From Tychonema litorale BBK16 (lineage in GTDB: Bacteria; Cyanobacteriota; Cyanobacteriia; Cyanobacteriales; Microcoleaceae), in contig NZ_JAKJHX010000059.1 in assembly GCF_021648855.1 (NCBI RefSeq), positions 1-23,497 of the forward strand: DNA of 23,497 nucleotides, in the 5' to 3' direction. Every line of letters begins with the position of its first letter. The first letter of the stretch is position 1. This document shows positions 11,059 to 13,467 of the stretch, one piece after another. The notes below the pieces were generated by a model. The model ran no database searches, had not been told where the DNA came from, and worked only from the letters and a program-made list of their open reading frames with translations. Position numbers and translations under genes: made by a program.

Positions 11059-13467
11059 TTAATTGTATAGTTGTTTTAGCAGTTCTATTAACTCAGATTC
11101 CGAAAGTTGGTGTATTCCTAAAGATTGAGCTTTTTCTAATTTAGAGCCAGCATCTTCTCCCACGACTACATAGTCAGTTTTGGCACTAACGGAATTTGTG
11201 ACTTTTCCTCCTGCTTTTTGAATCAAATCTTTAGCTTCATCTCGTTTGAGAGTTGGCAAAGTTCCAGTGATTACAAAGGTTTTTCCTGCTAATTGCAAAT
11301 TAGTTTGTGTTGAAGTCTGACTTTTTACTTCGGACTTTAATTGCAATCCCATAGTTTTCAATCGTTCGATTAAATTCTGATTTGCGGGGACTTGAAACCA
11401 CTGATAAACTGATTGAGCAATTTCTGGCCCAATTCCATAAATGCCTTCAATGGTGGCAGATGATACTGCTGCTAATTCTTCGACATTGGTAAATTTTTCT
11501 GTTAGCAATTGGGCGTTTACACTACCGACGTGGCGAATTCCTAAGCCGTAAAGTACCCGCGACCAAGGTTTAGTTTTCGATTGGGCGATCGCATTTACCA
11601 GCTTTTCGGCTAATTTAGCACCCATTCGTTCCAAATTCATCAGTCTTTCGGCTGTCAAATCATACAAATCCGCGGCAGAATTGAGCAATTTGCTGTCAAC
11701 CATTTGTTGCACCAGTTTTTCCCCAACACCGTTAATATCCAGGGCATCTCGACTGCAAAAATGAATCAGGGAACCCTTCAAAATCGCGGGACAAGATGTA
11801 TTGATGCAGCGAGTAACGGCTTCACCCTTTTCTCGAACCACAGGCTGTCCGCATTCTGGACAGCAAGTAGGCATTTGAAATAATTGAGCATTACTGGGAC
11901 GAAGTTCTGGTAAAACTCGCACAACTTCTGGTATAATCTCTCCAGCTTTTCTGACGATTACAGTGTCGCCAATGTGGAGATTTAATGCCGAAATGCGATC
12001 GCCATTATGCAGCGAAGCCCTTGAAACCGTCGTTCCCGCCAATTGCACCGGTTTTAGTTCTGCTACAGGTGTCAAGGCTCCGGTTCTGCCTACTTGGATG
12101 GTTACGGCTTCGACTATTGTAGGGACTTCTTGGGCTGGATACTTAAGTGCGATCGCCCAACGCGGAAATCTCTGAGTAAAACCCAACTGTTTTTGCAACT
12201 CAACCGGATTAATCTTAACAACAACTCCATCCGTCATGTAAGGTAAATTCCGCCGTTCAGTATCCCAGTATTCGTAATACTCCCGAACCTGATCTAAAGA
12301 GTAGCACAACTGACGGTTAGGATTCACTTTAAATCCCATTGTTCGCAATAATTCCAAAGAATCCCACTGGGTGTTCTCTTTATTCCCAGAGGGCGGGCAC
12401 GGGGGCACCGCCCCCACGGGTTCATCAAAATGCAGGGTATAAGCAAAGAAATCTAACTTTCGTTTGTCCACAATTTTAGAATCCAACTGTCGCAGCGTAC
12501 CCGCCGCCGCATTCCGAGGATTAGCAAATAGTTGTTCCCCTGCTTTTTCGCGTTCCCGATTAATTTCTTCAAATACACCTAATGATAAAAAAGCCTCTCC
12601 CCGCACTTCTAAAATCGGTGGCGGATTATCGATATTTAGCCTGAGAGGAATCGATCGAATTGTCTTAACATTTTGAGTGATGTCCTCACCAAAAACACCG
12701 TCTCCTCGCGTTGCGCCTCTAACTAAAATTCCATTTTCATAGGTTAATGCTAAAGCTGAACCGTCAATTTTTAACTCGCAAACATAGGAGACCCCCCCCA
12801 GCCCCCCCTTATTAAGGGGGGGAGTAATTTCTCTGTTTTCGTCGGAGGAGCCCCCCCCCAGCCCCCCCTTATTAAGGGGGGGAGTAATTTCTCTGTTTTC
12901 GTCGGAGGAGCCCCCCCCCAGCCCCCCCTTATTAAGGGGGGGAGTAATTTCTCTGTTTTCATCGGAGGAGCCCCCCCCCTGCCCCCCCTTATTAAGGGGG
13001 GGAGTAATTTCTCTGTTTTCGTCATTGCTAGGTGGAGGTGCAATTCCATCTTGTCCCCCCCCTTGATAAGGGGGGGTTAGGGGGGGTGAATTTCCATCTT
13101 GATAAGGGGGGGTTAGGGGGGGTGAATTTCCCCCTTGATAAGGGGGGGTTAGGGGGGGTGCTAATCGCAGCCATCGCTCCTGCCATTTAGCAAATTCTGC
13201 AATATCAAAAGCATTTTCCAAACTGTAGAGAGGAATATGATGCTTAACACTATAAAATTGAGCGACGGGCTTTTCTCCCACCCGCTGAGTCGGGCTTTCA
13301 GCAGTTATGAATTCGGGATTCTCTGATTCTAGGGTTTGTAAATGACGATAAAGGCGATCGTACACCTCATCTGCCATCATCGGCGCATCCAAAACATAAT
13401 AAGCATAGCTACCTTCCTGTAGCTGCTTTCTCAACTGTTTAATTTGCTGCTCAATTTCACCCTTCAT
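11059..13467 (-). CDS. ligA: NAD+-dependent DNA ligase with in-frame repeat insertions
   Basis: LigA seals nicks in duplex DNA using NAD+, joining Okazaki fragments and completing repair. The order is: Ia domain (about 1-75), adenylation domain with the AMP-accepting lysine K233 in ELKIDG, an OB fold (about 440-525), a four-cysteine zinc finger (C536, C539, C554, C559), helix-hairpin-helix repeats (about 570-700) and BRCT (about 726-800). At 802 residues it is about 130 longer than Escherichia coli LigA (671). The excess is mainly residues 102-227: three 12-residue units ([16 protein letters not shown]) and four 20-residue units ([24 protein letters not shown]), placed just before the catalytic lysine. 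A further 11-residue Pro/Gly/Cys insert (about 350-360) comes from another palindrome. The frame and all catalytic motifs are intact, so the enzyme is probably functional. Confidence 0.97.
12391..12420. repeat. GC-rich palindrome inside ligA
   Basis: GGGGGC-ACC-GCCCCC (12401-12415) with further GC-rich flanks forms a strong hairpin. On the coding strand it is read as about [10 protein letters not shown] (residues 350-359), a stretch that interrupts the adenylation domain between AYTLHFDE and [10 protein letters not shown]. It differs in sequence from the palindromes at 12787-13161. Confidence 0.8.
12787..13024. repeat. Four 60-bp tandem repeats with C-run/G-run palindromes in ligA
   Basis: Four near-identical 60-bp units each hold a run of C, then CCCCCCCTTATTAAGGGGGG, then a conserved AGTAATTTCTCTGTTTTCGT spacer and CGGAGGAG. 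60 bp is 20 codons, so each added unit preserves the ligA frame. The copies differ at only a few bases, pointing to recent duplication. On the coding strand each unit reads [20 protein letters not shown]. Confidence 0.95.
13059..13161. repeat. Three 36-bp tandem repeats with the opposite-orientation palindrome in ligA
   Basis: Units start at 13062, 13098 and 13134, each beginning CTTGATAAGGGGGGGTTAGG. The first is preceded by a C9 run, which completes the palindrome. 36 bp is 12 codons, read on the coding strand as [12 protein letters not shown]. The core is essentially the reverse complement of the core in the 60-bp units, so ligA carries the same element in both orientations. Confidence 0.92.

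Follow-up and report, generated by a model that had tools for sequence, protein, structure and literature searches.

What is an array of palindromic repeats doing inside an essential gene, in frame and only a few codons ahead of the catalytic lysine? The question is raised by a stretch of 23,497 nt (the window) on contig C59 (NZ_JAKJHX010000059.1) of the cyanobacterium Tychonema litorale BBK16, in which ligA, the gene for the NAD-dependent DNA ligase, carries such an array. The host genome amounts to 5.27 Mb in 226 contigs, and the nearest named relatives of the window LigA belong to Microcoleus and Oscillatoriales. Our answer, which we hold to be probable as a whole, is that one copy of a dispersed inverted doublet entered ligA in frame, that its two halves were then amplified separately, and that the resulting peptide is tolerated.

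The gene occupies 11059..13467 on the minus strand as an intact open reading frame (ORF) of 802 aa with Pfam matches to Nlig-Ia, the adenylation domain, OB, ZBD, HHH and BRCT. Its in-frame insert comprises residues 102-227 (126 residues; 12787..13161, minus strand), as delimited by Tandem Repeats Finder and by alignment to Escherichia coli LigA (2owo); there, query residue 98 pairs with residue 97 and query residue 226 with residue 108, i.e. 127 residues stand against ten. The position given in an initial annotation of this DNA thus agrees with both the 802-aa ORF and the arrays reported by Tandem Repeats Finder. That annotation had put the array about five residues from the AMP-accepting lysine; it does adjoin this residue, K233 (codon 12769..12771, minus strand), but K233 lies six residues past the insert end. 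It pairs with residue 115 of 2owo, which we take to be the catalytic lysine of the E. coli enzyme. Across 44 aligned sequences (the window protein and 43 of its 120 sampled relatives) E231, K233, D235, E291, R318, D413, K418 and K442 are invariant, residues whose catalytic roles we assume from the E. coli enzyme. Both the full domain set and the active-site residues expected of a LigA are present, and the natural protein with its insert is presumably functional. We considered and rejected a decaying gene copy: the ORF is intact, the motifs are present and a single ligA is listed for the genome, the other listed matches being confined to the repeats of the query. An assembly artefact is unlikely as well, because two contigs, the longest of 104,114 bases, are recorded with an identical 802-aa protein (P0001); the window's own contig appears to be shorter than this, as contigs C47 and C63 measure 36,781 and 29,852 bases. 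The palindromic repeat in LigA is confirmed as real.

Within the insert, all on the minus strand, a left-half array (13061..13160; unit C7-TAA-C7-TTATCAA-G5..8, from Tandem Repeats Finder) is followed by a spacer (13024..13060) and a right-half array (12786..13023; unit ACT-C7-TTAATAA-G7-CTG-G8, again from Tandem Repeats Finder). Three units of 36 bp and four of 60 bp had been proposed; the latter measure 4.0 copies, the former only 2.8. As noted from the start, both unit lengths are multiples of three, and the repeats stay in frame in an essential gene. Among the seven copies described six have intact cores, but the middle left copy, TTATCAAGATGG, is degenerate and lacks the G run. The two orientations had been deduced from cores that are reverse complements of each other; TTATCAA (left) and TTAATAA (right) are, however, both near-palindromic and scarcely tell orientation, which is given instead by the outer runs, with C7-TAA preceding the left cores and CTG-G8 following the right ones. 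A second open frame at 12771-13049 is indeed open and is a different frame, but its strand is ligA's own. Folded as RNA, the 386-nt repeat region reaches -209.5 kcal/mol, compared with a mean of -170.7 kcal/mol in dinucleotide shuffles (z -5.9). A LigA structure model built from 44 near relatives has a mean predicted local distance difference test score (pLDDT) of 37, too low to be usable; the inserted peptide may plausibly be a flexible surface loop.

The origin of the two arrays becomes clearer from copies of the repeat between genes. The intergenic form is an inverted doublet, GATC-C run-TAA/TAG-C run-hairpin-~19 nt-hairpin-ATTTA-G run-GATC. In a blast search among ten intergenic doublet places (one strand), L139, L141 and L151 share with each other and with other loci only ~81-96 bp, that is the element itself; at L135, L137, L140, L149 and L150 the doublet is embedded in a longer intergenic dispersed repeat of ~230-270 bp, and L143/L145 represent a variant form. 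Because the first three loci have so little else in common, the doublet is a discrete dispersed unit that is in part carried within a larger repeat. Two exact words of the left units in the ligA insert, CCCCCCTAACCCCCC and GGGGGGGACAAGA, recur at four of the ten intergenic loci each. Minimal LigA inserts in other genomes (L042, L039) consist of a single left and a single right half with a spacer between them. Among the 120 LigA relatives, 88 have a long stretch at this site (>22 residues, other fillers counted) and 32 a short one; a regular expression finds a left-type start together with a right-type end in 69 of the 88 long inserts, and on reading 17 of the 19 misses have both end types too, giving 86 of 88. 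The arrangement is lacking in P0034 and P0040, and in P0067 and L020 the outer ends are kept around a filler of another repeat. Intergenic doublets, common words, minimal forms and the end types of the long inserts together lead us to prefer the insertion of a single doublet.

Searching the host genome for the repeat in other genes, as the initial annotation had suggested, revealed dispersed copies, many of them in frame. The pattern CCCCCCTTRWYAAGGGGGG has 33 matches and a looser core, CCCCCTTNNNAAGGGGG, has 226, with none for the reversed-pattern control in either case. For a census we grouped every match listed on contigs C1-C16 into 25 clusters, counting a cluster as intragenic if it lay in an ORF of >=200 aa with >=20 aa on either side of the element. 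Eleven clusters qualify, including the masked L147 and two clusters of one gene (L146). Seven of them are Pfam-backed on both sides (GH116, CobN/Mg-chelatase twice, DapF, ThiL, RsmB and GH3), and at L134, L136 and L142 Pfam support is one-sided or ambiguous. The other 14 include L138, a masked ORF of 180 aa. As a check for genes split by the element, flanking ORFs were compared by Pfam at five of the 14, with differing domains on either side at L133, L139 and L144, a match on one side at L150 and on neither at L151; five further clusters have neighbours on opposite strands and three have neighbours on one strand. Two additional sets of 20 stretches each were picked as element-bearing or by contig number, the latter only among contigs absent from the first set and hence with a bias against elements. 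The contig-number set, with a slightly looser core, holds eight clusters, four of them in ORFs (DapF, GH3, CysRS and MenD), of which DapF and GH3 are also counted in the census.

When 22 further ORFs carrying the repeat, LigA excluded, were scanned with Pfam, 16 had either a domain running across the insert or domains to each side of it: GH116, ThiL, RsmB, TlyA, GcvT-like, ProRS, aminotransferase I/II, homoserine kinase (so identified by its top PDB matches), aminotransferase V (one of whose two stretches was printed), ABC exporter, AroE, DapF, GH3, CysRS, MenD and CobN/Mg-chelatase; for ThiL and MenD the match on the second side is below cut-off. For the remaining six (alpha/beta hydrolase, DUF255, RHS, FAD-binding, WD40 and kinase) support is one-sided or ambiguous, and masked letters lie within the RHS, WD40 and kinase ORFs. 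In alignments to solved structures the inserts of LigA, DapF, ProRS, AroE and homoserine kinase fall between conserved blocks. For DapF, 29 of the best 120 relatives match the strict repeat expression, and the relatives include empty (RCLAKFIADLEGSDAKTEYRIHTGAG), 1-6-copy and eroded forms, the remnants in the last being missed by that expression. The element occurs in frame twice in the 1375-aa CobN/Mg-chelatase (L146:3238-7362; around residues 202 and 1124), and prolyl-tRNA synthetase (L074:13084-15135) holds seven cores at about residues 363-449.

Genes read the element in more than one frame. Counting LigA, 20 genes together hold 51 intragenic cores; CTT-NNN-AAG (PLxKG) is the frame of 29, CCT-TNN-NAA (PYQG etc.) that of 18 and TTN-NNA-AGG that of four. 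The second frame is stop-free for 11% of the census-background spacers (both orientations, genic copies counted), yet none of the 18 copies that use it contains a stop. This could be taken for selection against stops, a reading that we rejected: stop-free copies are expected wherever the ORF is open, so the 18 show which variants can be read and by themselves indicate no selection. The earlier statement that the element avoids stop codons therefore stands as far as readability in more than one frame is concerned, but in 10 of 11 canonical intergenic doublets (81 bp) all six frames are closed, the eleventh (79 bp) having two open ones. Because those ten are closed, the intragenic copies are a readable subset or subtype of the element.

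Comparison of LigA orthologues bore out both the insertion boundaries and the variation in copy number. Orthologues without the repeats are shorter at the site, and near the window protein are P0011, with an empty 14-residue loop, and P0034, with another filler. On a FastTree phylogeny of insert-free LigA, in which 42 of 113 inner branches are weakly supported, the site changed between filled and empty at least nine times, five of these changes being forced by well-supported branches; by regular-expression count, copy number changed 33 times for the left half and 19 times for the right. Copies even differ between rows that are identical in the kept tree columns (P0002 and P0005 vs P0007, P0016/P0031, P0039/P0081). 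All 29 genomes of the genus contain ligA, with both flanks on one fetched locus in 22; a long insert is present in 19 of these and a short loop in three (L034, L038, L040), and 20 are in frame. We attribute the other seven of the 29, in which the flanks are not on one locus, to contig breaks at the array. In L020, P0067 and P0034 other sequence, some of it SPNLPI-like repeats, occupies this stretch, as if the site were open to insertions in general.

How else could the insert have come about? The initial annotation had proposed that one palindrome entered twice, in opposite orientations, each copy being amplified with a spacer of its own. The two arrays do differ in unit length and spacer, and single halves occur by themselves in other genes, the left one in DapF, GH3 and CysRS and the right one in aminotransferase I/II and MenD. 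Yet the copies between genes already have the inverted-doublet form, their left and right linkers being the same, the left half precedes the right in 86 of the 88 long inserts of LigA (17 judged by reading), and AroE and the alpha/beta hydrolase also carry the left-spacer-right architecture in frame; we therefore regard two independent entries as unlikely and do not retain that part of the annotation. An ordinary local expansion of a tandem repeat, with no dispersed element behind it, would account for the tandem arrays, and heptamer arrays do occur elsewhere in the window; but with 226 dispersed core matches against none for the control in the same genome, and with the core carried by 119 of the 148 genomes from the order (control <=1 per genome), it is hardly credible. 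It fails as the whole story because the copies are dispersed, amplification within ligA being already a part of the explanation that we favour.

The remaining alternatives concern what the insert does. That the peptide was recruited for a function of LigA, e.g. partner binding or tuning of the ligase, might be suggested by the long form in 88 of 120 relatives (other fillers included) and by the conserved catalytic core. Near relatives, however, are empty (P0011) or filled otherwise (P0034, P0067), copies vary between proteins identical in the tree columns (P0016/P0031, P0039/P0081, P0002/P0007), and the same peptide turns up in unrelated enzymes, so that recruitment seems quite improbable; a passenger that the protein tolerates, rather than a functional domain, is the likeliest reading of the peptide. 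Still less do we believe, giving it a very small chance, that ligA is a contingency locus in which slippage at the C or G runs, in DNA, transcription or translation, shifts the frame and with it the amount of active ligase. Almost all copies have runs of 7-9 C or G, and in two genomes (G003, G028) run length has shifted the frame while no other full ligA is listed; but 20 of the 22 genomes are in frame, including the single-contig G027, ligA is normally essential, and the exceptions are assemblies of six and one contigs. Run-length errors are common in long-read assemblies.

Under the single-doublet explanation, then, a cyanobacterial element of mobile type, built as C-run, linker, hairpin, spacer, hairpin, linker and G-run, would have entered ligA once and in frame, in a variable stretch just ahead of the catalytic-lysine motif. 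The insert would persist since this stretch takes extra residues, the unit is stop-free when read and its length is a multiple of three. Through recombination between the long C and G runs, or slippage there during replication, the left (36-bp) and right (60-bp) halves would then have been amplified separately, copies being quickly gained, lost and eroded, and many other housekeeping genes would have followed the same course. Several observations weigh against this account. Single halves stand alone in the five genes named above, 14 of the 25 census clusters are outside long ORFs, and the six scanned ORFs with one-sided or ambiguous Pfam support (of 22) could be fused or damaged genes. On the LigA tree, numerous gains cannot be told from a few gains combined with losses, and whole inserts could have been copied by recombination between strains. 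In G003 (L028; six contigs) and G028 (L029; one contig) a change in run length divides ligA between two frames, which is unexpected in an essential gene unless it reflects sequencing error or real slippage. No core lies within ~1.5 kb (less at contig ends) of 32 loci matching Y1_Tnp.

The element is widespread in the order: core counts per genome range from 0 to 300, with a wide spread within genera. To call the phenomenon one of Microcoleus only is not tenable, as long ORFs hold 4 of the 21 clusters in two genomes from other families, compared with 11 of 25 clusters in the host (Fisher p 0.11); colonisation of genes is not limited to this genus. A search of six genomes including the same two placed 0 of 14 sites in long ORFs, and pooling the other families (L171 and L186, which are the same, counted once) gives 4 of 34, to be set beside the host's 11 of 25 (Fisher p 0.007), both samples being small and unmatched. 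Gene colonisation may thus be stronger in Microcoleus. A REP-associated tyrosine transposase (RAYT) was considered as the source of the element's presumed mobility. Y1_Tnp matches are found in 28 of the 29 genomes of the genus, and the 32 loci mentioned above were three from the host genome (with L061 masked in part) and 29 taken from the many matches in the genus; with the core beside none of the 32, we rejected this link.

A second palindrome, GGGGCGGTGCCCCCGTGCC, unrelated to the first, is read in frame in ligA as VGAVPPCPP (12396..12414, minus strand; around residues 350-358). It has 26 places in the genome (control 0), is present at the same LigA site in 20 of the 120 relatives, and is found inside the first insert in P0035, P0037 and P0043. 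Heptamer or octamer tandem arrays lie elsewhere in the window, at 2701-2776, 7202-7371, 17476-17804 and 23395-23497.

For annotators, these data mean that core enzymes in Microcoleus can vary in length through repeats, and that assemblies may break, or gene models shift, at arrays of C and G runs. Among the literature matches listed (titles and abstract openings, with few subscription papers), none described repeats that colonise cyanobacterial proteins.

Which known repeats does the element resemble? Small dispersed repeats (SDRs) of cyanobacteria, described by Elhai et al. in 2008, are reportedly very small, hairpin-forming repeats of 21-27 nt that were proposed to be mobile; possible identity of our element with an SDR family is the main risk to novelty. 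Cyanobacterial genomes also contain the GTAG/CGTC-tagged repetitive extragenic palindromes (REPs), short palindromes that are classified by a terminal tetranucleotide tag (PMC3733652). Our element is likewise a short palindromic repeat of cyanobacterial genomes, but its intergenic form ends in GATC beside the outer runs, and no GTAG/CGTC tag was noticed on reading the copies, although no scan was aimed at tags. A closer structural parallel is the REPIN, a REP doublet forming hairpins (PMC3116915): here, too, two inverted palindromes enclose a short spacer and are dispersed between genes. REPs are extragenic by name, whereas this element often lies inside genes, and because no core stands beside the 32 Y1_Tnp loci, where a RAYT flanked by the same repeat would be expected, we do not file it as a REPIN.

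In behaviour, the Rickettsia palindromic elements (RPEs) provide the better model, and the likeness drawn in the initial annotation holds in this respect, judged from descriptions of RPEs. According to a 2024 review, RPEs are in-frame palindromic repeats in unrelated metabolic genes, predicted to be compatible with fold and function; nearly half lie inside ORFs, and an RPE family unit measures ~150 bp (PMC10969869). The present element likewise sits in frame inside genuine protein-coding genes. It differs in its unit, a doublet of ~81 bp or about half of that, in its C and G runs, its tandem amplification, its use of several frames and its cyanobacterial host. The same review calls the Rickettsia case unusually frequent and holds similar protein evolution by small repeats in other prokaryotes to be conceivable (PMC10969869). 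The element described here provides an example from a different phylum, and since its relatives include many named Microcoleus isolates, the uptake of mobile-type DNA by essential enzymes, its rate of change and its usefulness can be put to the test. We tentatively raise the idea, while rating it somewhat below even, that cyanobacteria harbour a REPIN-like class of protein-colonising repeats whose C- and G-run hairpins are readable in several frames and which, independently of Rickettsia, uses tolerant stretches of essential enzymes as safe harbours, goes on amplifying in them and keeps giving housekeeping proteins new disordered segments.
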